Below, piece by piece: positions 2,053 to 58,546 of a DNA stretch of 64,000 bases. Positions within the stretch are counted from its first letter, which is position 1. Each line of letters starts with the position of its first letter. The DNA is from Fibrobacteria bacterium. GTDB taxonomy: Bacteria > Fibrobacterota > Fibrobacteria > UBA11236. A model generated the notes under the pieces. The model had not been told where the DNA came from, did no database searches, and worked only from the letters and a program-made list of their open reading frames with translations. Where the stretch lies: positions 1-64,000 of the forward strand of contig JADGQO010000135.1 in NCBI GenBank assembly GCA_017881725.1, given 5' to 3'. The translations under genes and the position numbers were made by a program.

Positions 2053-3060
2053 ATGGACAGACAGCCCAAACCCGAATTCTTCCATATCCTCAGGACCCAA
2101 CAATTCGATCGCGCCATCCTCGATGAGCTTTGCGATTTGACCACCGCAATCCGGAAATTCGCCAAGACGCGCGAAGGCCTGAATTACCTGCGCGGCCTGC
2201 TCGCGCATAAGCGGGCCATGCTCTACTTCACCCAGCCGTCTACGCGGACTTTTTTGTCCTTCAACAACGCTTGCCAAATTTTGGGTATACAAACCAGCGA
2301 AATCCGCGATGCCTCGACGTCCTCCGAAGTCAAGGGCGAGAGCCTGTTGGACAGTTTGCGGACGTTTTCCTCCTATGTCGACGTGGTGGTGATGCGCACC
2401 AAGGAAGAAGGCTTGGCGGAATCGGCTGCGGAGCTTTTCGATCATATCAAAAGACGGGTGCCCATCGTCAACGCCGGCAGCGGCCGCGATCAACATCCGA
2501 CCCAGGCGCTTCTCGATATTTATACCCTGGAACGCTCCTTCAAGGAAATGGGCGGCATCGATGGGAAGACCATCGGCATGATGGGCGATTTAAGGCGCGG
2601 TCGGACGGTCCGCTCGTTGTGCTACCTCATGAAGAATTATCGTAATATGCGCCTCGTCTTCATCGCGCCGGAACAATTCCAGATGGAGGACGACATCAAA
2701 ATCCATCTCCAGCATCACGGGGTGGAATTCCACGAAACCAAGGATTTGAATTCTGCGTTACCCGAGCTTGACGCCATCTACATCACGCGCATCCAGGATG
2801 AGTACGACAAATCCGGAGAGTCCAAAGGCGTGGACTTAGGCAAGTTCAAATTCGGAACCGAACATTTGAAGATGATGAAACCCCATGGCGTCATCATGCA
2901 TCCGCTCCCGCGCCGTGAAGAAATCCACACCGACGTGGACATCGACCCTCGGGCTAAATATTGGCGTCAGGAACGGAACGGAATGTGGATGCGCGTCGCG
3001 ATTTTCGTCAAGCAGTTCAAAATGGATCACTTGATCATGCATGGGCATTTGTTGGATTGA
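2053..3060 (+). CDS. pyrB: aspartate carbamoyltransferase catalytic subunit
   Basis: STRTFLSF carbamoyl-phosphate motif, HPTQALLDIYTL, HPLPRREEI; start chosen at MDRQPKPEF. Confidence 0.9.
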   Translation: MDRQPKPEFFHILRTQQFDRAILDELCDLTTAIRKFAKTREGLNYLRGLLAHKRAMLYFTQPSTRTFLSFNNACQILGIQTSEIRDASTSSEVKGESLLDSLRTFSSYVDVVVMRTKEEGLAESAAELFDHIKRRVPIVNAGSGRDQHPTQALLDIYTLERSFKEMGGIDGKTIGMMGDLRRGRTVRSLCYLMKNYRNMRLVFIAPEQFQMEDDIKIHLQHHGVEFHETKDLNSALPELDAIYITRIQDEYDKSGESKGVDLGKFKFGTEHLKMMKPHGVIMHPLPRREEIHTDVDIDPRAKYWRQERNGMWMRVAIFVKQFKMDHLIMHGHLLD

Positions 3061-7577: not shown

Positions 7578-8624
7578 ATGGGTACCCTCAGGAAACTGAA
7601 TTGGATGCGAGTTCTGACGGTCACGGCCCATGCCGCTTGGCTGACCGTGCGCGGGCTATGGCTCACCCTTTGGACCATTTATCAAATCGCCTTGGGAGTG
7701 GCCTTGATCGGTCTGGTATGGGGCGTATTGCGGGTGGGCGAATATTTTTCAATTTGGGATATTCGCGATTTGCGGCGGGAAAATCCCAAAACCACGGCCT
7801 TTATTGATTCGGAACGCGGCCGCCTCTCGGACAGTTTACGGACCAAAGGCATTATTCCTAAGCCTGATTCCTTGATCTCCTGGGCTTGGATCCCTTTAGA
7901 CTCTATCCCTAAATCCATCCAGGAAATCACCCTCATCGCCGAGGACGCCAAATTTTTTGAACACCAGGGATTTGATTTGGAGCAAATCGAATACGCTATC
8001 GTCGCGAACCATCAAAGCGGGAAAAAGGCGCGTGGCGCCAGCACCATCACCCAGCAATTGGCAAAAAATCTCTACCTGTCCAAGGACAAAGAGATGAGCC
8101 GGAAATTGCGGGAAGCCGTGATAACCCTCGCGCTGGAACATTACCTGACCAAGGAGCGGATTCTGGAGCTGTACCTTAATGTGGCGCAATTCGATGAGGG
8201 TGTGTTCGGACTGCGGACCGCGTCCAGGCATTATCTCAACAAGGAGCCGACGCAACTCACCCAGGACGAGGCTATTAATTTGATTTGCCTGTTGCCTAGC
8301 CCGTCGAAATGGAATTTCAAACGGCCGAACAGCGCCTACCTCCAACATAAACGCCTGGTTCAGAAAAACTTTGCTTTGTTTAAGGGCATGGCCTTGGATG
8401 AGGATTCCACATCCTTCGGTTGGCAAAACCAGGTATTCACGAAATTAGCGGAGCAACTGACCGATGACCGATGGAAAGGTTTACGAACCAAGGCCATGCA
8501 GCCGACATCGGACGACAGCTTGAACACGGATGCCGATCGGGGCCAAAACTCCGATAGCCCCAATGGAAATCCCGCTTCGAATGGAAAAGTCCCTCATCAT
8601 TCGACCAGACTTCGGACGTTCTAA
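7578..8624 (+). CDS. mtgA: monofunctional biosynthetic peptidoglycan transglycosylase (GT51)
   Basis: EDAKFFEHQGFD, GASTITQQLAKNLYL, RKLREAVITLALE, KERILELYLN; N-terminal TM. Confidence 0.9.
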   Translation: MGTLRKLNWMRVLTVTAHAAWLTVRGLWLTLWTIYQIALGVALIGLVWGVLRVGEYFSIWDIRDLRRENPKTTAFIDSERGRLSDSLRTKGIIPKPDSLISWAWIPLDSIPKSIQEITLIAEDAKFFEHQGFDLEQIEYAIVANHQSGKKARGASTITQQLAKNLYLSKDKEMSRKLREAVITLALEHYLTKERILELYLNVAQFDEGVFGLRTASRHYLNKEPTQLTQDEAINLICLLPSPSKWNFKRPNSAYLQHKRLVQKNFALFKGMALDEDSTSFGWQNQVFTKLAEQLTDDRWKGLRTKAMQPTSDDSLNTDADRGQNSDSPNGNPASNGKVPHHSTRLRTF

Positions 8625-8630
8625 AGTCGG

Positions 8631-9929
8631 CTAAGAGGCCAGATACTCTGTGATTGCCGAGCGAAGTTTTTGGTAGACCCAAAGATTTTTTTCGGGATTT
8701 TCTTCCAGCAAGGTGACGCGGAATCCCATTAGGTCCGAGCAAAAGGAAGAAATCGGTACCACGCAAATTCCGGTCGCGGCCAGGACATAGTACACGAAGC
8801 GTTTATCCAAATTCACCGACTGAACCATCGACTCTACCAAAGTCCGGGCATCGGGATTCGCGACGTGCAATTTTTGCGTGGAATTCAACACGCCTTTTTT
8901 GAACAAGATGGTCGTGTAGAAGGCGCCGAACGTCTTGTTCACAAGCAACCCTGGCACGTCCTTCAAAGTTTCGTAAACCACGTCCCCGCGCTTTTGAATA
9001 GCCAGATTCAAGGCTTCGCGATGTTTGGGAAATTCCGGGTGCGACAATATCGGGGGTATGGCCATCTGAGGCAGGGTGGTGGAACACACTTCCATCATCT
9101 TCGAGTCTTCAATGGCCTTGACCAACCTTCCAAATTCAGGATCGCGTTTGGTGTTGTAAAATTCGAGCCAGCCGCACCGTGAACCCGGCCAGGGCAATTC
9201 CTTGGATATGCCCTTCATGGCGATGCCGCATACGTCGCCGATGACTTGGGCGAGGGGAATGGCCTTCACGCCATTATAGGTGATGTTGGTATAAATCTCA
9301 TCCGCGACGATGAAGAGGTCGTATTCTTTCGCGATGGATACGATTTCACGCAAGTACCATTCCGGGTACACCATGCCCGTGGGATTGTCGGGATTGATGA
9401 TCAAAATGCCGACGATACTGGGATTGTATTTGACCTTGTTCCGCAACTCTTCCATATCCGGATACCAGTGGTTTTCCGGAATGAGTCGGTAGGTGATGGG
9501 AGGCTGGCTGGCGTGCCCGCCCTCCGCGGAGCTATGCGTGGAGTATCCCGGAGACGGTCCCAACACGCGCGCGCCGGGATCGAGATATTGGTAGACCTTG
9601 GAGATGGCATCGCCCAAGCCATTACAAAACAAAATATCCTCGGCGGTAATTTGCGTGCCGCCCAAATCGTTATTTCGCTTAGCCAGGAACTGTCGCGTTT
9701 CCGGGACGCCCTTGGTTTGGCAATACCCGTAGCTCAAGGAGTCTTGCGCCAAGCCGGCGACAATGTCTTTCATCCACTGGGGAATGGGAGTTCCCTTTTG
9801 CACCGGATCGCCGATGTTTTCCCAAAAGATTTCTAGGCCCATCTTTTGGAAGAGGTGGGCCTTTTTCACAATTTCCCGGATTTCGTAGACCAATTCGCCG
9901 GCGCCGGCGTGCAGTACAGGACGTCTCAT
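8631..9929 (-). CDS. class I/II PLP-dependent aminotransferase
   Basis: NPDNPTGMVYP, VADEIYTNITYNG, SKELPWPGSRCGW (PLP lysine region). Confidence 0.88.
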   Translation of the reverse strand: MRRPVLHAGAGELVYEIREIVKKAHLFQKMGLEIFWENIGDPVQKGTPIPQWMKDIVAGLAQDSLSYGYCQTKGVPETRQFLAKRNNDLGGTQITAEDILFCNGLGDAISKVYQYLDPGARVLGPSPGYSTHSSAEGGHASQPPITYRLIPENHWYPDMEELRNKVKYNPSIVGILIINPDNPTGMVYPEWYLREIVSIAKEYDLFIVADEIYTNITYNGVKAIPLAQVIGDVCGIAMKGISKELPWPGSRCGWLEFYNTKRDPEFGRLVKAIEDSKMMEVCSTTLPQMAIPPILSHPEFPKHREALNLAIQKRGDVVYETLKDVPGLLVNKTFGAFYTTILFKKGVLNSTQKLHVANPDARTLVESMVQSVNLDKRFVYYVLAATGICVVPISSFCSDLMGFRVTLLEENPEKNLWVYQKLRSAITEYLAS

Positions 9930-10097
9930 ATAGGCAAGATATAGAAATTTACCCATCCGTGAGAAAGACCGCGTCGGGCGCTGGGCGTGGCGTGGGTGGT
10001 GAAAATTGATTGGGACCGGCACGGGTCCATCCTGCGAATCGCCCGCAAAGATGGCCCGGCTTAGGCGGGCCCGGCGTAGGCGGGCCTTGCCGTAATT

Positions 10098-11276
10098 TTA
10101 GCGGCGGCGCATCTGGTTCGGGATGGGGCTGTAAGACCGGGGAAAGCGCGTCTCGGAGTCGAACAGGTTTTTCTTCAGGTTATCGGAATCCCAATATACC
10201 GTGGAGAGATTCGTGCCACTGAAGTCGCAGGCCGTGATGAAGGCGTTGTCGAAGCGGGCATTGGAAAGATCCGCACCGGTGAAATCGCAGTTGAAGAGCT
10301 GGACGCCGGAAAAATCGGCGAACTTGAGGTCCGCGCCGGAAAAATCGGCCTTGATGATTTTTTCCGCCGAAAACTTTCCGTGCTCGAGTTTTACACCATG
10401 AAAATTGGTCTTTTCCATGGTTTTAACGTCTATAACCACTGAGTTGAGCGACGAGCCGGAAAAATTCACGTCGTCCAGATCCAAGTGATAGAAAGAGGTG
10501 TTGTTAAAGGAGCAGCGTTCGAACGAGGCGCCCCCCAATTTGGTAAATTGGAATTCGGCTTTGTCGAATTTGCAATCCTGGAAAGTCGAGCCTTTGAGAT
10601 TCGTTTCCACCAAGGCGATGGACTGCAGATTGCTGTTTGAGAAATGCAAATGATCCAGGTCCGCTCCGGTAAGATTGGATTCGGCCAAATTGATCCCCGT
10701 CACCGTTGCGCCGCTGAAGTCCGCGCCTTCGAACTTCACGGCGTTGAAGACCGCGTTCGTCAAATCCGACTTCGAAAAGTCACTTTGTTCCAGGCTATTG
10801 TTTTTGAAATTTGCGCCCGTAAGGATCGCTTTCTCAAAACTGATTTTTTCGGAGAACTTCGCCTCAACGAAATTGGCCTTGGCCAAGGAGGCGCCTGCAA
10901 AGTTTGATTCCAACAACACTGCGCTCTGAAAATTCGCTCCGTCCAATCTGGCGCGCTTGAAAGTGCTGTTGCGCAGGTCGGAATTCCGGAAATCCGATTG
11001 CGGAAAGTCCGTTTCGGAAAAGTTGGCTTCGGAAACTTGCATGGAGGAAAAATTCACGCTTTTCCCATGGGAACCTTCAAAATTGGGTTTGGAGCCGATC
11101 GTTTGGTTGAATCGAGCATTCTCCAGCGTGCAACCCTTGAATTGCGCATCGGTAATATCCCTGCTGCTAAAGGAGCGTCCGGTGAGGTCGTCCCCTTTGT
11201 GGTTTTCCGCCGCGAGAGCCTTCCCCGATAAAGCGGCGATTCCGATTAGCAGACACAGGGAGTTAATGCTGCGCAT
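10098..11276 (-). CDS. exported pentapeptide-repeat protein
   Basis: Signal peptide MRSINSLCLLIGIAALSGKALA followed by long A(N/D)LxX/F-type pentapeptide repeats. Confidence 0.85.
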   Translation of the reverse strand: MRSINSLCLLIGIAALSGKALAAENHKGDDLTGRSFSSRDITDAQFKGCTLENARFNQTIGSKPNFEGSHGKSVNFSSMQVSEANFSETDFPQSDFRNSDLRNSTFKRARLDGANFQSAVLLESNFAGASLAKANFVEAKFSEKISFEKAILTGANFKNNSLEQSDFSKSDLTNAVFNAVKFEGADFSGATVTGINLAESNLTGADLDHLHFSNSNLQSIALVETNLKGSTFQDCKFDKAEFQFTKLGGASFERCSFNNTSFYHLDLDDVNFSGSSLNSVVIDVKTMEKTNFHGVKLEHGKFSAEKIIKADFSGADLKFADFSGVQLFNCDFTGADLSNARFDNAFITACDFSGTNLSTVYWDSDNLKKNLFDSETRFPRSYSPIPNQMRRR

Positions 11277-48397: not shown

Positions 48398-48826
48398 TTA
48401 CTTCCAATACTTTTTCAGCCCGGATAAATCCAGGGAAATGGAGTCGATCGCTAATTTAACCTTATTGATGGCGGAGGAGAATTCAGGTTCGGCCAAGGAA
48501 TCCAGATCGACGATGCGGGTGTGGATGTTTCCAATTTTAGAATCTACGGCGTCCAGAGTGGGTTTGATTTTCTTCCGGGTCTTGTTCCCCAGCTTGGCAG
48601 CCTGCTTCTTGGCGCTGTCGATGCGGGCCACCACATGCTGATCCAAGGCGTGGATTTCCTTTAACGAACTCTTTTTGTGATCGGCGTGCTGAGCTGATTT
48701 TAGTGAGTCGAAATTGACTTTGGGGGTAACTTCAACCGTTTTGGCTTTATGCTTTTCGCAGCCCAGAATGGCGAAAAAGACGAATGAGGCGAGACCTATT
48801 CCCATCATCCTGATTAACTTGTTCAT
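48398..48826 (-). CDS. hypothetical lipoprotein
   Basis: Signal with ILGC lipobox; helical C-terminus. Confidence 0.6.
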   Translation of the reverse strand: MNKLIRMMGIGLASFVFFAILGCEKHKAKTVEVTPKVNFDSLKSAQHADHKKSSLKEIHALDQHVVARIDSAKKQAAKLGNKTRKKIKPTLDAVDSKIGNIHTRIVDLDSLAEPEFSSAINKVKLAIDSISLDLSGLKKYWK

Positions 48827-48936: not shown

Positions 48937-48953
48937 AGTTCGTATAACTTACT
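48937..48953. promoter_or_regulatory. MarR-type operator candidate 1
   Basis: AGTTCG-TATAA-CTTACT. Confidence 0.5.
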
Positions 48954-48963
48954 TAAATACCTA

Positions 48964-49734
48964 TCTGGAACAAACGGATTCGGCGCGGATCGGCAAACAA
49001 TACCCCGTCTAGCCCATCAGTGGTTTTCACGCCTTCCATCTCGGCGGCGCCGGCCTGGATCATGTGGGCGCCGGGATATTGTTTGCGGTCCACTTTTCCG
49101 GATCCGGATAGCGTGCCACGGCATCGCCGTTCCGATTGGTCACGGAGATGATCGAGCCCGCCGGTAGTTGGGATTTCTCCGCCAACGTATTCAACCAGTT
49201 CAACCCCATCGCGGCAACCAGAATCCTGGCTGAATCACTACCGATGCCGGGAAGGGGGAGTCCCAAGTTGATCGAGGCTTCCGGTCCCAAGACGCCGTTG
49301 AAATCGAACCCGATGGTAAACGTTTTTTTCCTTGGGATGACATGAAACCAATCGAATTTGGACAAATTGGTTTTCAGCTTCAATGGAAAGGCGGAACACA
49401 CAAGGGAGCCGTCGCGATGGGCGACCACCAGGATCGAGTAGACCGAAGGCGAACTGATAAGCCCGGAGAGGGTTTTATCCATGTCAGCGCGCGATGCGGG
49501 CTGCGTGCCGATAATGGCCGCTGTTGCATGTAAAAAAATTTCGCCTTCGGAAATGTCCCGTTCCAGGTTGCTGGCCAGGAATCGACTTAACCGAAGCGCA
49601 TTGTTCCGGACTTCCTCCTCGTCCTGGCGTTTCCGCTCGGAGGCGGAATAGATAATGAGGGCAATCGCCGGATTGACAGCCATGAGAACGATCAACAGGA
49701 TCCGCACCCTGATGCGAGTGAATAAATCAATCAT
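48964..49734 (-). pseudogene. dCache-type sensor N-terminal remnant, frameshifted near 49084
   Basis: MIDLFTRIRVRILLIVLMAVNPAIALIIYSASERKRQ...PDPEKW then alternate frame DRKQYPGAHMIQAGAAEMEGVKTTDGLDGVLF; no kinase/output domain. Confidence 0.55.
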
Positions 49735-50082
49735 TTTTTGGATTGTGGTGCGGGGTTTGCTGTTGGCATCCAGGGCTTAAATATGTTCTTTCCATTCTCT
49801 ACCCAAGGAATAAGTTGCGGGAAGCCGGAGCCACGCTTGGGATTTTGTTGGGCCGGGATTCATTGATTCATTCAGGATTGCCAATTTTACTTTTTCGCCG
49901 ACATGCTACCTATGCGTCTGCGCATATGACCATCACCAATTCGATCTATGAAGGTTTGTATCCCGGTAGAACCTCGGTTTCCAACAAGGTAAACCGGAGG
50001 TGATTGGAAACTTGGATTAGCTCGATGTGGGCGACCTTTCCGGGCCTGACTGGAAAGTCACCCCTTACCCAAATCTAATTAT

Positions 50083-50099
50083 AGTATGCATTACGAACT
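50083..50099. promoter_or_regulatory. MarR-type operator candidate 2
   Basis: AGTATG-CATTA-CGAACT. Confidence 0.5.
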
Positions 50100-50294
50100 A
50101 ATACGTCTCCTTTTTGAAAGCGTTGAATTAAACAGGTTGAGTTTTGAATACCAGTGATCGGCAGCAAATATCTAAAAGTGATTCCAAATTGCAGTGGAAA
50201 GAGCAGAAAGGCCCACAAATCCGGATTACGCCCGCGGACATTTAGGCGATGGTCGGGAATCCGGACCGATAAGATCTGGAGGATATCTGATTCT

Positions 50295-50825
50295 TTATTT
50301 TGCGCGCTTGCGCTTGGGACCGGTGGAGCCTTGCGACTCCGCGTGGCTTTCGGAAGCGTAGAACTTCCCATCCAAAATGGCTTTTTCCAATTCCGCCTTC
50401 ATCAAGGCCAGGGCATTGGGAAAGTGACCGGCAAGGTTGGCAGGAAGCCCGGACAGGGCGCGTTGGTTCAGGTCCGCAATCACCTTTTTGATTTTCGGCA
50501 AAGCCTGCTCGGCCTTGGGGGTCAATTCCAGGAAGTATTTCCGGCCGTCCGCTGCGCTGGGCGAACGACGGATGAAGCCCGCCCGATTCAATTTGTTGAC
50601 GATGCCGGCCAGGGTCACCTTATCCAATTCGAAAAGATCGGCCAGGTCCTGCTGGGACAATTGCGTATCGCTTTCACCGATGGTCACGAGCATGAAATAA
50701 TGGCGTTTAATTCCCAGATAGCCGAGATAGGCCGTGAGCGCATCCGTATATTTTTTGGAAACCTTGTAAAGCTGGAGCCATAACGGAAGCTCGGAAGCGA
50801 TGGGTATTTTGGCTTTCATCTTCAA
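50295..50825 (-). CDS. MarR family transcriptional regulator
   Basis: LSQQDLADLFELDKVTLAGIVNKLNRAGFIRRSPSAADGRKYFLELTPKAEQ (winged HTH). Confidence 0.92.
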   Translation of the reverse strand: MKMKAKIPIASELPLWLQLYKVSKKYTDALTAYLGYLGIKRHYFMLVTIGESDTQLSQQDLADLFELDKVTLAGIVNKLNRAGFIRRSPSAADGRKYFLELTPKAEQALPKIKKVIADLNQRALSGLPANLAGHFPNALALMKAELEKAILDGKFYASESHAESQGSTGPKRKRAK

Positions 50826-50946
50826 AAAATAGCATACAATCGTTTCCTTGTGCCGAAAAGGGTATTCAAGCGCTGTTCCTCTGGTTTTTTTGACGTTTAG
50901 GAAAGGTGGGGAGGGACTGGTCCCGGCCGAATCCGTTTGGTATATT

Positions 50947-50963
50947 AGTTCGGTATACGAACC
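50947..50963. promoter_or_regulatory. MarR-type operator candidate 3 in the marR / histidine-kinase divergent region
   Basis: AGTTCG-GTATA-CGAACC. Confidence 0.6.
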
Positions 50964-50983
50964 TTAACAGATTTTCTGGGGTC

Positions 50984-52830
50984 ATGAATCCAATGCCGGA
51001 ATCACCAAGAATCCAACCAAGACTGGTCTTGGGACGGATCGCGTCGGTTCTGTCCGGTGGAGTCAAAGTCGGCCGAAGGGTCTTAAACTCAAAATCCGTC
51101 CTGCAATTCTGGCGATATGTTTCCGTTGGGGCGATTTACATTGCGGCCTACCTCCTATTGGATAAGTTATCCATGAGCCTCAAGGCCACCTCCGGTTTGA
51201 GCCTTAAATACCTTCCAGAGAGGCTCAGTCTCGCTTTACTGATGGGTTATGGATTTTCATTCGCGCCCCTCCTGCTGATCAGGCCTTTTCTTAGCGGGCT
51301 GTGGATCTATCCACTCCAAGCCGGAGTCCCGGTCTTATTCCTTTTGGGGACCGTCTCGGCTTGCGTATACGGGGTGGCTGCGACGCTTCTGAAAATCCGC
51401 TTCCGGGTTGATCTGAAGAATCCAGGAGTACAAGATCTTGCCCGGTTTACCGGCGTGATCCTAGCGGCATCACTTTTGACTTCTTGCGCGACGGTCTGGA
51501 TCCTGTCCGATTTGGGATATGCCCCTTTGCCGGATTTGACGGTGAGAATTTTCCGCCTTTGGATGGGGGACGCATTGGGCATTGTCACCTTGACGCCGTT
51601 TTTGCTGGTCAATGTATTGCCCAGGCTGAAAGGCTTGCTGTCCCCGGTATTTGAACCACCAGGTAACACAGGTGTAACGTCACAGACGGGTTACAATAAC
51701 CCGAATCCCCTTCCTCAAATGGAAGTTGGCCTGAAAACCGCCACGGCACCGCGTTGGAACAACTTGGCGGAAATGGCGGTCCAGGGTTTGGGAATCGCAT
51801 CAGCCTCCGCCCTGGTTTTTTCTCCTTGGATCGGCCAAGCCTTTCATCATTACTATTTTTGCTTCATACCCATCATCTGGATCGCCTTACGCCGGGGATT
51901 GCCGGGCGCCTCGCTCGGGGTATTGGCGGTGAATGCGGGAATCCTAATCGCCATCAGTGAATGGGAAACGAGCCTGAGGGAAACCTTCGATCTCCAACTT
52001 TTCATTCTCACCATCACATTGACGAGCCTATTCCTGGGAGCCTCCGTTTCCGAGCGGGAGCGCGTCCAAATGGCCTTGAGGGAAAGCGAAAGACGATTGC
52101 TTCGGACCCAGAAATTGGACCTGATGGATCGTATGTCGGGAGGAATCACCCATCACTTCAATAATCTTTTTACCGCAATAAGCGGATACAGCGAGCTTCT
52201 CTTGAATATGGCCAGTGAGGAGGGCCGGGATCAGAGGGGTTTACATGAGATAAGGAATGCCAGCGAGCGCGCGGCTGAATTAACGGCCGCAATTTCAACA
52301 TTTAGTCGGGGAAAATTCATCGAAATGGTTCCTCTAGATTTAAACGTATTCCTTCAAGATATGGAAGCGCCGCTTCAGCAAATAGCCGGAAGCAAAATCC
52401 GCATTGTGGTAAATCGGGCCATGCAGCCGTGTTGGATCCAGGGCGATTACAAACAATTGCAATACGCATTACAGCACTTGGTTATTAATGCTTGCGAAGC
52501 GATGCCCGCCGGCGGAGAGGCCTTGTAACAAGTCGGAGCATCCCAATTGAAAAGCGCCTGCTGGTGGTGAATGGCTGGGCGGAACCAGGGGAGTATTCTG
52601 GGCTCACCATCAGCGATACGGGTCGGGGCATGATCGAATCCGTCCAGACGCAGATATTCGAACCTTTTTTCACCACGAAGTCGGCACAGTCCTCCGGATT
52701 GGGTATGACAGCCGTATACTGCGCGGCGGAGCAAATGAAAGCCAGGATCCACTTTATCAGCCGGGCCGGTGAAGGGACGACGTTCTCGTTGTTGTTTCCA
52801 ATCCACAATAAGTTGAATCCAAGCCTCGGG
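50984..52830 (+). pseudogene. MASE1-domain sensor histidine kinase, single-base frameshift at ~52526
   Basis: MASE1-like TMs; GGITHHFNNLFTAISGYSELL (HisKA); HLVINACEAMPAGGEAL| then other frame VTSRSIPIEKRLLV...TISDTGRGMIESVQTQIFEPFFTTKSAQSSGLGM. Confidence 0.75.
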
Positions 52831-52930
52831 TCATCGAAGCCTGTCGGTAAAAGGAATTTGAACCCTGGTTGGAAAGGTAAGGTTCGTCCTATCCAACCTT
52901 TCATCACAGAACCAAAATTCGGAGGTCCCC

Positions 52931-53452
52931 ATGAAAACAGTTAGTCTAATCACCGCAACCGTTTCCGTATTCTTGTTTGCCTGCGCCCAGAAGCCCAAGC
53001 TCGCCGCCAAGCCGGAATCGGCGCCCATGCCGAAAACGGCGCTGGCGGCCAACCCGGTCATGACGGACCGATCGGCGGATTTGGAAAATGCCAGGTTGAA
53101 AATCCAGAGCCTTATTGCGGAAGCGTTCCGACCCGTGTATTTCCCATTCGATAAATATGATCTTTCACAGAAATCCCGGGACCTACTTTCCCAGGCAGGC
53201 GATCTCATGAAGCGTGAGCCTTCCATTAAGGTCACCATCGAGGGCAATACCGACGAGCGCGGCACGGAGGACTACAACTTGGCACTGGGCCAGCGGCGCG
53301 CCGCCGTCGTAAAGGAATACTTGGCCAGTTACGGGATCGGAATTCCCCGCTTGAATCTGATCAGTTATGGCGCGGAGAAACCCGTGCAGCACGGGCATGA
53401 CGAGCAGTCCTGGGCTTTGAACAGGCGGGACGAATTCAAAGTGACGTTCTGA
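52931..53452 (+). CDS. OmpA/Pal-like peptidoglycan-associated lipoprotein
   Basis: Lipobox FLFAC; YFPFDKYDLS...IEGNTDERGTEDYNLALGQRRAAVVKEYL. Confidence 0.9.
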   Translation: MKTVSLITATVSVFLFACAQKPKLAAKPESAPMPKTALAANPVMTDRSADLENARLKIQSLIAEAFRPVYFPFDKYDLSQKSRDLLSQAGDLMKREPSIKVTIEGNTDERGTEDYNLALGQRRAAVVKEYLASYGIGIPRLNLISYGAEKPVQHGHDEQSWALNRRDEFKVTF

Positions 53453-53483
53453 ACCGTTTTGGCGAAAGCCGAAGGAGGGTAAA

Positions 53484-54152
53484 ATGAAATTTTTGGCCGT
53501 CGGATGGATAAGTACAGCGGTTTTCTTTTCGGCCTGTTCCAATGGGCCATTGCATTTTTCCGATCCCAATACGGAAAGGTTGGATGCCTTGACAGCCTTA
53601 ACCGTTGCGCTTTCCAAGCGGGATTTCAAGGCTGCATCGTCCCTGATGGATCCGGTCGATTTAAAAAAGATGTCGGACGAAAGCGGCGGAATCCAATTGC
53701 AATACCAGGATCGGTTGCGCGCCATGCGCATGACCACATTGATGAACAATCCGCTCATCAACGTTGAGAAAGGAAAGGTTCGCGGGGTGTTCGACATACT
53801 GCCTGTCTTGAACCAGGGCATTGCGAAATCGGTGGGAAACAACGCCGATGCAGACACTGCGGAGGCGGAATACACGTTGCGATCCTACAAGACGACTTTG
53901 ACTCCGGATGATCCCGCCTTGAAAAAGACGGCTGAGGCGTTTTTCAAATCCATACGAAACCGGAATTGGTCACAGGCCATGAGCTTCGTAAATCAGGAGG
54001 AGCGGCCGGATTTCATCGCGAACAATGGCCAGGTGCGCGAGGACGCGCGCCGGCGTTTGGCGGAAATCGATACCAGTTCTTGGGATGCGATGACACTTGA
54101 GAACGGCAAATTAACGGGCGTGGTTTTGCTTCTCCCTGATCAAGCCAATTAG
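53484..54152 (+). CDS. hypothetical lipoprotein
   Basis: Lipobox FFSAC; no family recognised. Confidence 0.6.
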   Translation: MKFLAVGWISTAVFFSACSNGPLHFSDPNTERLDALTALTVALSKRDFKAASSLMDPVDLKKMSDESGGIQLQYQDRLRAMRMTTLMNNPLINVEKGKVRGVFDILPVLNQGIAKSVGNNADADTAEAEYTLRSYKTTLTPDDPALKKTAEAFFKSIRNRNWSQAMSFVNQEERPDFIANNGQVREDARRRLAEIDTSSWDAMTLENGKLTGVVLLLPDQAN

Positions 54153-55927
54153 CCGGATTCGGATTTCTGGGTCAGATCGTGGTATTGCGCCATGATGTCG
54201 TGCAGGCGGATCATGCCGCGCACCCGGCCCTCTTCATTTAATACCGGTAGGTGGGTGGCTCCGGATTCCAGGAAAACCGTCAAGGCCTGGTGCAGATCCA
54301 TTTCCGGTTCCAGGAAAAACTCTTCCGACATCAGATCGCCGACCAGCAGAAGATTCTCCGCTTGCGATTCGGCCACGGCCAGATGTAGGCTGGCGGTGGA
54401 CACCAAGCCCACGAATTCGTTTTGTTCCCCGACAACGGGAAAAACATCCCATTCCGAATACCGGACGGAGGCTAAGGCGTCGGTCAACTTCCAATCCGAG
54501 TGGAGGGTGGGTACATTTGCGCTTTCCCGGAAAATGGACTTCAACGTGACTTGCCTCAGCACATCGACCTTCATGGCATGCTCATGGACGGGGGAGGAAA
54601 ATTTATTGTGCCGCTGGCTGGCGTACAATGTCCATTTGCGCGACAAGGCGAGATGCAAGGTCGAGGCGATGAGCAAGGGAGGCAACAATCCGTAATTACC
54701 CGTGATCTCGCAGACCATGATAAGGCCTGCCAGCGGTGCTTTGGCGGCACCTGCGAAGAATGCACCCATGCCGACCAGCACATAGGATCCGGGAGTAGTG
54801 ACCAAGGCCGGGTGCAAGTGATGCAATCCGAAACCCACCGCGCCGCCCAACATGCCGCCGATGAAAAGGGAGGGGCCGAACACGCCGCCCGAGCCGCCGG
54901 AACCAATCGTGAGGCAGGTCGCGATGATTTTTGCGGCCGCGATGAAGAGCAAGGAGTGAAAGGCGATGGAGCCGGAAACCGCATCCGAAAGGTAAGACCA
55001 ATTCGTACCTGCGGCCTGGGGGCATAGGTAGGCCAATATGCCGACCAGCAATCCGCCCACGGCGGGCTTCAGGTAGTTTTTCATCTTGAGCCCGCCGAAA
55101 AAAGCCTGAACCTTTTGGAAGAGGCGGACGAACGCCCAAGAAAATGGCACGCAAACCAGTCCAACCAAGGCGAAGTTCGCTAACTCCGTAACGCTGGCAA
55201 ACGGAAGCATCGGGAAATGCAAGTAGGTGGTATGCTGATGGGTGATTAAGGAGAAGCACGCGAACGCGACGACGGATGCGACCGTGAAAGGCAGGAAGCC
55301 TTGCGATTCGAAATCTTCCTTATAGACGATTTCGGCGGCGGTGAGCGCTCCGCCCAGGGGCGCATGGAAAATGGCGCCTAAGCCGGCCGCTGTACCCGTA
55401 AGTAGAAGAATGCGCCGTCCGCGATCGGGTAATCGGAACAAACGCCCGACGAGGGAGCCCAGCGCCCCACCCATCTGGGCGGTCGGCCCTTCATATCCCG
55501 CGCTGCCGCCACTTCCCAAGGTGATAATGGAGGCGAAAAATTTCACGATGGCAGTCCGCATCGGAATATGGCCGCCGCGATTGTGGAAAGCATCGATGAG
55601 TGCATCCGTACCGGTTCCGGCGGCATCGGGAGCCAAAGTGAAAACCAGGATGCCGGATAATAGGCCGCCTACCGCAGGCACCAGGAAGAAGAGGTAATGG
55701 GGAAGCACATGCGCATGGTTCGCGGCGAAGGGAAAACCAGCGAAACGCAGGAGCACCATGTCCTGCACGAATTCCAGGGTGCGTTTAAAGAGGGCCGCTG
55801 TCGTTCCGCCCAGCATGCCCAGCAAAACCGCGAATCCCAACATTCCGCCGGTGCGATGCCAATATTGTTGCAAGAGGAGGAACTTCAGGCGCTCGGGCGG
55901 GATCAATTTCATGAGCACGGTATGCAA
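54149..55927 (-). CDS. ClC family chloride channel/transporter with C-terminal CBS domains
   Basis: GSGGSAGYEGPTAQMGG, GSGGSGGVFGPSLFIGGMLGG; CBS-like C-terminus. Confidence 0.95.
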   Translation of the reverse strand: MHTVLMKLIPPERLKFLLLQQYWHRTGGMLGFAVLLGMLGGTTAALFKRTLEFVQDMVLLRFAGFPFAANHAHVLPHYLFFLVPAVGGLLSGILVFTLAPDAAGTGTDALIDAFHNRGGHIPMRTAIVKFFASIITLGSGGSAGYEGPTAQMGGALGSLVGRLFRLPDRGRRILLLTGTAAGLGAIFHAPLGGALTAAEIVYKEDFESQGFLPFTVASVVAFACFSLITHQHTTYLHFPMLPFASVTELANFALVGLVCVPFSWAFVRLFQKVQAFFGGLKMKNYLKPAVGGLLVGILAYLCPQAAGTNWSYLSDAVSGSIAFHSLLFIAAAKIIATCLTIGSGGSGGVFGPSLFIGGMLGGAVGFGLHHLHPALVTTPGSYVLVGMGAFFAGAAKAPLAGLIMVCEITGNYGLLPPLLIASTLHLALSRKWTLYASQRHNKFSSPVHEHAMKVDVLRQVTLKSIFRESANVPTLHSDWKLTDALASVRYSEWDVFPVVGEQNEFVGLVSTASLHLAVAESQAENLLLVGDLMSEEFFLEPEMDLHQALTVFLESGATHLPVLNEEGRVRGMIRLHDIMAQYHDLTQKSESG

Positions 55928-55995
55928 AGATCCTTAAATAGGGATCGAGAGTTGGAAAAGGGCGTTGCCAGGGAGCAAGTCTGAACCTTTAATAT

Positions 55996-56012
55996 AGTAT
56001 AACTACCGAACC
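55996..56012. promoter_or_regulatory. MarR-type operator candidate 4 upstream of clc
   Basis: AGTATA-ACTAC-CGAACC. Confidence 0.5.
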
Positions 56013-56109
56013 TAATGCTTTTCCCTCTACGATCTCACCGATGATTTATGGTCAAATAACTCTCAATATGAAGTTTTTTCAGTGACGGCAAGCAGCGCAC
56101 GTTACATAT

Positions 56110-56126
56110 AGTACGTATAACGTACT
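56110..56126. promoter_or_regulatory. MarR-type operator candidate 5 upstream of clc
   Basis: AGTACG-TATAA-CGTACT, perfect arms (extends to TAGTACGT-ATA-ACGTACTA). Confidence 0.65.
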
Positions 56127-56188
56127 AATAGGGGTTCCTCCCTCAGGAATCGCGGCTGTCGAGAGCGACCGTGGATCGGAGCCGATGG

Positions 56189-57097
56189 TCAGCCTGCGGT
56201 TCCTGTTCCCTTCGTTTTTCGGTTTTGGATTTCCCGTTTCCACATCAGGCCCAGGAGCAGGATCAACCCGGCTAGGACCACATAACCGCCGCCGCGCATC
56301 GAGTTCTGCGCGAAGAGCACGTACCCCTTGGCGTTGGGATCATAATGGTAGCAGAACAAAGTCAATTTCTCGCCGATGGATAAGGCCTTGCAGTCCTTGG
56401 CTTCCAACAGGGCCAAGCGTAAATCCTTGGGCGGATAATCCACGCCGTAAAGGTAACGGCAGATTTTGCCATCCGGTGACAAGGCGAAAATGGCGGCCGC
56501 ATGGGAAAAGTCATCCGTGGCCGCATTGTAGTGAAAGTTGAATCCGATGGCCTTGGCAACTCGGGAGATCACTTTTTCTTTGCCCGTGAGGAAATGCCAA
56601 CCCGCCGCAGCTTCCGGCTTACCCAGCGCCTCGATATGGGTTTTCTTCTTGGCCAGCGCTTGGGCGGGTCCTTCCTTGGGATCCATGCTCACCGTCACGA
56701 CTTCGAATTCCACGCCCGGCGTCCAGGCCATTTTTTTTATGCCTTCCACCATGCCCGCCAGGACCAGGTTGCACAGCATGGGACAGCGATAATAGGCGAA
56801 GTTGAAAAGGACGGGCTTTCCGAGCTGGAAATATTCCGACAGGGCCGTTTCCCGGCCGTTTTCGTCCAGGAATTTCGCGTCCAAGGGGATTTTGGATTCC
56901 AGGTGCTCCTCGATTCCCACGTCGACCAGCGCGGGCGGCAAGGAAGCTTCCGCGGGCGCGCCCGTATCCGACTCCGCTCCAGCTTGGGAATGGGCCGGCA
57001 GGGAGGAAAGGACTACGGCTGCGAGAATTACGTTTAAAATGGATTTTGTACCGGGGACGCGAAAGGAAATTTTTGGGGAAGCGGGAAAAAAGCTCAT
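56189..57097 (-). CDS. SCO1/SenC family protein
   Basis: FNFAYYRCPMLCNLVLAGM (CxxxC), DDFSHAAAIFALSPDGKI; N-terminal signal and C-terminal TM. Confidence 0.88.
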   Translation of the reverse strand: MSFFPASPKISFRVPGTKSILNVILAAVVLSSLPAHSQAGAESDTGAPAEASLPPALVDVGIEEHLESKIPLDAKFLDENGRETALSEYFQLGKPVLFNFAYYRCPMLCNLVLAGMVEGIKKMAWTPGVEFEVVTVSMDPKEGPAQALAKKKTHIEALGKPEAAAGWHFLTGKEKVISRVAKAIGFNFHYNAATDDFSHAAAIFALSPDGKICRYLYGVDYPPKDLRLALLEAKDCKALSIGEKLTLFCYHYDPNAKGYVLFAQNSMRGGGYVVLAGLILLLGLMWKREIQNRKTKGTGTAG

Positions 57098-57227
57098 TGG
57101 TTAAGTATACGAACGGAATGTATTTGTGCCAACCGGCATGGATTCATTCCGAATGATCGTTTCCAGGTTTCGTAAAACCAGGAAACATGTGTCCATAATC
57201 TTGGATGAACAATCCGCCCGTCACGCA

Positions 57228-57615
57228 CTACTGCACGGGTACGGAAGCCAACACCGCGGCGGCCAATCCCTTGGGGGACATAACCGACCTCGGTGAGGCG
57301 TCGCTCCGAGACGTGGAATGGGGCATGACCCAACGGACGATGGGCATTGCGCAAAAGGAAAACGAGGGCCGTGAGGCCGACCGCCAGGGCGATATGCGTG
57401 AAAACGGGTCCGACTTCCCCGAAATGTTCCGGAAAAACCAGCTTGAACACCGGCCCGATTCCGATTCCAATCACGATGAGAAGCAACACGTCCGGGATGC
57501 GGATGGCGCGTAGGCGCATCAGTAAGAGGGACCGGACGAATCTGAATAGGACCACGAACAGGTGGGCAAGGAAGACCAACAATCCTACTATGGCGATGGC
57601 GATATCGATCTTCAT
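57228..57615 (-). pseudogene. internally deleted and frameshifted CPA-type cation/proton antiporter remnant
   Basis: IRIPDVLLLIVIGIGIGPV...VFTHIALAV joined to C-terminal-type ALVFLLRNAHRPL...HVSERRLTEV / MSPKGLAAAVLASVPVQ in another frame. Confidence 0.6.
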
Positions 57616-57746
57616 GGTGTTCGGGAAGCTAGATAGTTTCGAGGCGCCGACTGGAAACGTCTTGGGTAATTCCAGGCGGATATTCAATGTCCATCCGGTT
57701 TTTTCAAGCCGGTAGTGGCGGGATAAAATGAAATTTGGATATTTAA

Positions 57747-57763
57747 AGTACGTAATGCGTACT
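57747..57763. promoter_or_regulatory. MarR-type operator candidate 6
   Basis: AGTACG-TAATG-CGTACT, perfect 6-bp arms. Confidence 0.65.
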
Positions 57764-57802
57764 AAATGGATGGGTTGGACGAGTCGCGGAAGGGTGCTGG
57801 GT

Positions 57803-58546
57803 ATGTGGAAATTTGTTACGGCGGGGATACCCATTTTTCTGTTTGTGAGCTGCGCCGGTAACCGGGCATGCCGGGATAATTTGATCGACATGCGGAAGTC
57901 GCAGCGGCAAATGGTTATGCGGGACGAAGCCTTGTCGCGGGAAAATTCCATCCTGGCGGAAGAAAAGTCGGATTTGGAAAAGGATGTTGCCGCTTTGCGC
58001 GACGATTTGGAACGTGAGCGTAAACGGGGTACGGCCGATCGCGCGTCCCATAAGGCCTATGAACGTTCCACTCAGCAGCGTTTAACGGGATTGGAAGACT
58101 CGCTGGAAGATTTGCGCGATGAGATGGCGGAAGGAATGGATTCCCTGCGCCAGTCCGGAGAAGCGCGCGTCGATTCCTTGAAGAAGCGCGCGACGGAATC
58201 GGAGGCCGGACTACGCAAGGAGTTTTCGGAATCGGTTCACGACGCGGGAAAACGCCAGGAACAACTCCACCGCCTGCAATCCCAATATGACCGTGATCGG
58301 TACGCTTGGGATCGGATGAAGGATGAACTGTTCCAGAGATTGGCGTCGCTTGATCGGCAATTAGCGCGCGTCCATACCCTTGGGGATTCAATCAATACGG
58401 ATCATGGGTCGCGTCATCCCAAAGGAAACGCTTCGCAAGGAAACACTTCCGCCCCTCCCATAATGGATACCCTTCGTTCCAGCCGTGATTCCCTTCGCGG
58501 TTCGGATTCAACGCATGCCTGGAGCCGGAAATCCACGCGGCCATGA
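57803..58546 (+). CDS. coiled-coil lipoprotein, hypothetical
   Basis: Signal with FVSC lipobox; long heptad-rich charged region. Confidence 0.6.
   Translation: MWKFVTAGIPIFLFVSCAGNRACRDNLIDMRKSQRQMVMRDEALSRENSILAEEKSDLEKDVAALRDDLERERKRGTADRASHKAYERSTQQRLTGLEDSLEDLRDEMAEGMDSLRQSGEARVDSLKKRATESEAGLRKEFSESVHDAGKRQEQLHRLQSQYDRDRYAWDRMKDELFQRLASLDRQLARVHTLGDSINTDHGSRHPKGNASQGNTSAPPIMDTLRSSRDSLRGSDSTHAWSRKSTRP

Follow-up and report, generated by a model that had tools for sequence, protein, structure and literature searches.

Palindromes dispersed around a marR gene in a Fibrobacteria genome: candidate operators of a small local regulon

Among the regulators of the MarR family, MexR and SlyA offer the closest described systems. 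Operator PII of MexR, TTTTAGTTGACCTTATCAACCTTG, has GTTGA half-sites in inverted orientation, 5 bp apart; those of SlyA are separated by 2 bp (PMC9892617). In SlyA, the base contacts are made by Ser62, Val64 and Arg65 (PMC4737184). Six palindromes with 6-bp half-sites and a 5-bp gap lie within a 9-kb block of the window, i.e., the whole 64-kb stretch of Fibrobacteria DNA that was analysed. Compared with PII by sequence, they have the gap of 5 bp and the outer letters (AGTT/AACY) of a MexR-type operator.

Palindromes and genes of the block

All six palindromes described in an earlier note on this DNA are present where they had been placed, far above chance. They are listed as putative operators, together with a weak copy at the start of sco:

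Operator 1, 48937..48953: AGTTCG-TATAA-CTTACT, 110 bp 5′ of the lipoprotein ORF 48398-48826 (-)
Operator 2, 50083..50099: AGTATG-CATTA-CGAACT, in the interval from the marR stop to the Cache-type sensor gene
Operator 3, 50947..50963: AGTTCG-GTATA-CGAACC, in the divergent marR / MASE1-kinase intergene
Operator 4, 55996..56012: AGTATA-ACTAC-CGAACC, about 81 bp upstream of the clc ATG (55915, -)
Operator 5, 56110..56126: AGTACG-TATAA-CGTACT, the second copy upstream of clc
Operator 6, 57747..57763: AGTACG-TAATG-CGTACT, 5′ of the coiled-coil lipoprotein gene
Weak operator, 57099..57115: GGTTAA-GTATA-CGAACG, abutting the sco ATG (57097, -)

The genes of the block are as follows:

48398..48826 (-): small lipoprotein without a Pfam family, proposed target of operator 1
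49060..49734 (-): sensor protein, shorter than its dCache-HAMP orthologue in the congener G003 (47% identity to G003:C38:27428-28573)
50295..50825 (-), ATG 50819: marR-family regulator (Pfam MarR, 1.2e-9; PDB matches to MarR/SlyA; homologues in G003 and G001)
50906..52528 (+): N-terminal part of a MASE1 histidine kinase, with the ATPase part in a different frame (52492-52944)
53484..54152 (+): DUF lipoprotein, the G003 orthologue of which (37%) is transcribed away from the sensor gene and has the sites in common with it
54149..55927 (-): clc, a ClC chloride channel/transporter with a CBS domain (Pfam Voltage_CLC, 1.9e-90; G003 orthologue 77%)
56189..57097 (-): sco, a Sco1/SenC-like protein by Pfam, the G003 orthologue of which adjoins clc
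57803..58546 (+): ORF of a coiled-coil lipoprotein, proposed target of operator 6

Operator 3 is nearer to the start of the MASE1 kinase (21 bp to the ATG at 50984) than to that of marR (about 128 bp), and operator 2 is a distant 348 bp from the sensor ATG. The MASE1 kinase gene (50906-52944) is broken by a stop at 52528, representing either a pseudogene or an assembly error; an orthologue was sought, and none could be separated from other histidine kinases. Operator 6 lies 39 bp 5′ of the coiled-coil lipoprotein ATG at 57803, or 6 bp 5′ of an alternative ATG at 57770. Beside it is a divergent short TM ORF, and the neighbour that had been taken for a CPA remnant gave no Pfam match.

The consensus proposed earlier, AGTwCG-N5-CGwACT, is fitted exactly by only two of the six copies (56110 and 57747), with three others carrying one mismatch and the copy at 55996 carrying three. 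A chance or dispersed-repeat origin, by which these would be mobile or duplicated palindromes or products of A/T-rich intergenic DNA, draws on the fact that the bare consensus with up to three mismatches is not enriched in the 64-kb window (51 matches, 47.6 expected). Against this reading, all six palindromes have A/T-only flanks of 2–4 bp on both sides, and a symmetrised matrix that includes these flanks gave them scores of 20–34 bits, compared to 10.6 for the next position in the window. With a 5-bp flank in the matrix, 30 Markov shuffles, each of 64 kb, reached 17.1 at most, and in leave-one-out tests five of the six scored above anything in 2 Mb of Markov sequence. The 60-bp flanks are at most 37% identical among sites, so that the copies did not arise from one duplicated segment.

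The weak copy at sco scores 13.9 bits by leave-one-out, with about three such matches per Mb expected by chance, and is therefore weak by itself. It overlaps a sigma70-like −10 sequence (TATACT), promoter-like matches there occurring at chance frequency only. What gives weight to the earlier mention of a partial copy at this place is a site at the matching position in G003, described below.

RNA hairpins, acting as attenuators or processing sites, could also produce inverted repeats, and two of the sites do fold into moderately stable structures (−7 to −8 kcal/mol). The folding of several sites from both species was, however, no better than that of shuffles, and an Rfam search gave no match. 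Some sites lie in intervals between divergent genes, and the weak arms of the copy at 55996 retain the outer letters while losing the pairing. An RNA function in place of a DNA operator is thus very improbable.

Distribution in the genome and in congeners

The assembly containing the window (G000; 5.2 Mb in 235 contigs, 90% complete) has five matches to TTAGTWCG-N5-CGWACTAA with up to two mismatches, four of them in the block. With the relaxed pattern WWRGTWNR-N5-YNWACYWW there are ten, of which six fall in the block, three lie within genes (C47, C226 and C231) and one is intergenic (C104:9428). The motif is enriched at the promoters of the proposed targets relative to the genome; the equal frequency genome-wide or inside genes that the earlier note had set against its own proposal was not seen when this search was run.

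The intergenic copy outside the block, ATAGTAGGACAACCGAACTAA (locus G000:C104:6428-12448, 3001-3021), is in the interval between a narK-like transporter gene and a nitrite/sulfite-reductase gene. The narK orthologues of three congeners (G002, G003 and G005) were searched and had no site, so this copy is not conserved; it may be a chance match or a recent trans target.

In five congeners (G001 to G005), the near-consensus motif with the CG core was absent at up to two mismatches. G003 has instead palindromes of the identical 6-5-6 geometry and outer letters, with AA/TT in the core where those of the window have CG, a variant that was recognised post hoc on reading the sco and clc intergenes of G003. 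Two lie upstream of sco (GGTTAA-TACTA-TAAACT and AGTAAA-TTGAA-TTAACT), of which the second (C73:27042) touches the sco ATG, the same position as the weak operator at 57099 in the window. Another, CGTTAA-CCAGG-TTAACT, is in the sco-clc intergene, about 70–90 bp 5′ of clc. When the whole genome of G003 was searched with a pattern made from the sco and clc sites, a further perfect match (TTAGTTAATTTATTTAACTAT) was found at C38:27314, flanked by the genes orthologous to the sensor (47%) and the DUF lipoprotein (37%) of the window, with a second site at C38:27399. As the pattern had been derived elsewhere, the C38 site is an out-of-sample confirmation. G003 thus carries two sites at sco, one at clc and two at the sensor/DUF pair, and its relaxed pattern matches genome-wide at six places, four at these promoters and two inside genes. 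The G003 sensor orthologue is a 381-aa dCache-HAMP protein, and the ORF after it is receiver-like and matches no Pfam family.

The other four congeners (G001, G002, G004 and G005) lack a clc orthologue at the threshold applied, and have one or two scattered relaxed matches each. Other sco genes of the genus and phylum are without a site, indicating that the sites belong with the clc-linked sco.

The sites are present and nearly confined to the block, and they are conserved at the orthologous promoters of a congener. As the sister species keeps them at the same genes, a real small regulon is indicated, and the local regulon put forward in the earlier note is strongly supported by the near-confinement of the motif together with the congener sites. 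Conservation at the G003 promoters contradicts the chance or dispersed-repeat reading, which, being opposed also by the matrix scores, the unrelated flanks and the genome-wide near-confinement, retains a probability close to nil.

The candidate regulator

The marR product is a cysteine-free, winged HTH protein, scoring 38.3 bits with PF01047 (cut-off 24.6) and 37.0 bits with PF12802 (cut-off 27). It matched 71 PDB sequences, those of MarR/SlyA type on top, and in a scan of contigs it was found at a single locus, with Fibrobacteres MAG RYN_348 as the sole named relative. The earlier description of MarR as the only regulator of the block agrees with the scan of this and the surrounding ORFs (36-64 kb), which found no other HTH protein. 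A palindromic, operator-like site (50947-50963) lies in its own, divergent promoter region, and both genomes with the sites also have a marR gene.

More distant support comes from the phylum. Across 168 genomes, near-consensus matches were mostly scattered and single, at about the control rate. In G123, the motif is about 20 bp 5′ of an unrelated MarR gene, directly after TTGACT-17-TATATT; the sole orthologue that the phylum yielded for this gene (G122, 52%) has TTGACA-17-TATATT at the same place, followed by GGTTCGATATACGAAAT (GGTTCG-ATATA-CGAAAT). Operator 3 resembles these two sites, which look like a classical autoregulatory operator and show that MarR-family genes of the phylum carry the motif.

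The linkage of marR to a site is not repeated in relatives. The surroundings of marR orthologues and paralogues (in G003 and G001, and at G000:C82 and C15) were searched and no site was found, and in G003 the gene is on a different contig from sco-clc. At that locus (C38, about 8243-10800), a gene for a cysteine-rich DUF326 protein precedes marR, a pyruvate-oxidase-like ORF follows it, and nhaA is transcribed divergently from it; the window shares this nhaA-marR neighbourhood.

Control by MarR, as the earlier note proposed, accordingly has on its side the sole HTH protein of the block, the site in its intergene, the G122/G123 promoters and the MexR-like geometry, and against it the site-less marR genes of G003 and G001. 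A regulator encoded elsewhere (TetR, ArsR or another HTH family) might bind the sites instead, with MarR a bystander or mere target, and the G003 sites without an adjoining regulator gene are in keeping with this. So is a TetR gene in G004 (G004:C4:41000-47000, 2666), where a loosely similar palindrome with like outer letters, TTAGTTTACACTGTTAACCAT, overlaps the gene start, ending at the start codon; geometry alone, therefore, does not exclude TetR. A similar palindrome follows 660 bp on, and the two are a probable TetR operator pair. In G003, an A/T-rich palindrome, AACGTATATTAAATATATTAA, lies in the interval that separates a TetR gene from an ORF running the opposite way (G003:C19:2577-4818). 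Yet the relaxed matches outside the cluster in G000 and G003 (five intragenic, one in the narK/nitrite-reductase interval) include none beside a regulator gene, and in G122 and G123 the same motif stands at two MarR-gene promoters. A regulator from elsewhere is on balance unlikely, and the binder of the palindromes is most probably the MarR protein.

At the positions equivalent to the SlyA base contacts, alignments give T71/A73/G74 for the window MarR (TTG start = residue 1), T/V/N for that of G003, and S/V/G for that of G001, a genome with no known sites. Two of the three contact positions thus differ between the window and G003 proteins, where the operator core also differs, which is suggestive only.

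Proposed mechanism and comparison with known systems

Taking these observations together, we consider it quite probable that a single dimeric regulator uses the palindromes as operators. It would most likely be MarR (50295-50819, -), working like MexR as an autoregulated repressor that a ligand releases. MarR binding, repression and a small-molecule signal are all inferred here. This one regulator would act on the units of the lipoprotein, the Cache-type sensor, marR/MASE1 kinase, sco, clc and the coiled-coil lipoprotein. Each MarR subunit would insert its recognition helix into one AGTwCG half-site, the half-sites being spaced by one helical turn in A/T-rich DNA that overlaps or flanks the promoter. 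The dimer would repress these promoters, including its own, and at sco the −10-like TATACT would fall inside the operator. As the MarR protein is free of cysteine, OhrR-like thiol oxidation seems unlikely, and a ligand would be the likelier signal. The earlier label of an ion or envelope-stress regulon derives solely from how the target genes are annotated; these (ClC with CBS, Sco, the Cache/HAMP sensor, lipoproteins and the MASE1 kinase) would fit ion or envelope homeostasis.

A bolder reading, possible but doubtful, is that of a genus-specific MarR regulon that joins a ClC transporter, a Sco protein and envelope sensors, and whose operator core and base-contact residues of the recognition helix changed together between sister species, the core going from CG to AA. 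If true, regulator and operators would have co-evolved in nature at many sites simultaneously. The locus offers a testable candidate regulator-operator pair in a phylum where regulation has been scarcely studied, and a small natural experiment on the change of a MarR operator across several sites between species. It also links a ClC/Sco module with a Cache sensor and with lipoproteins that lack annotation.

The MarR genes of G122 and G123, from another family of the same phylum, have the same class of operator sequence at their own promoters; their proteins are only 18% identical to the window MarR and their gene neighbourhood is different. With the SlyA/MarR family (PF01047, PF12802), the window MarR shares, by profile, the fold and the placement of the recognition helix. 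It differs from SlyA in that the half-site gap is 5 bp rather than 2 bp, and in that Arg65 corresponds to Gly74. The likeness to the mexR-mexAB-oprM system of Pseudomonas aeruginosa (sites PI/PII) includes a dimeric, MarR-family wHTH regulator with sites in its own intergene, and PII has the same 5-bp gap, A/T-rich flanks, and outer letters as in AGTTCG-N5-CGAACC. The core is GA in MexR and CG or AA here, the two proteins are merely distantly related, and where MexR controls an efflux pump, the proposed targets here are a ClC transporter, Sco, lipoproteins and kinases.
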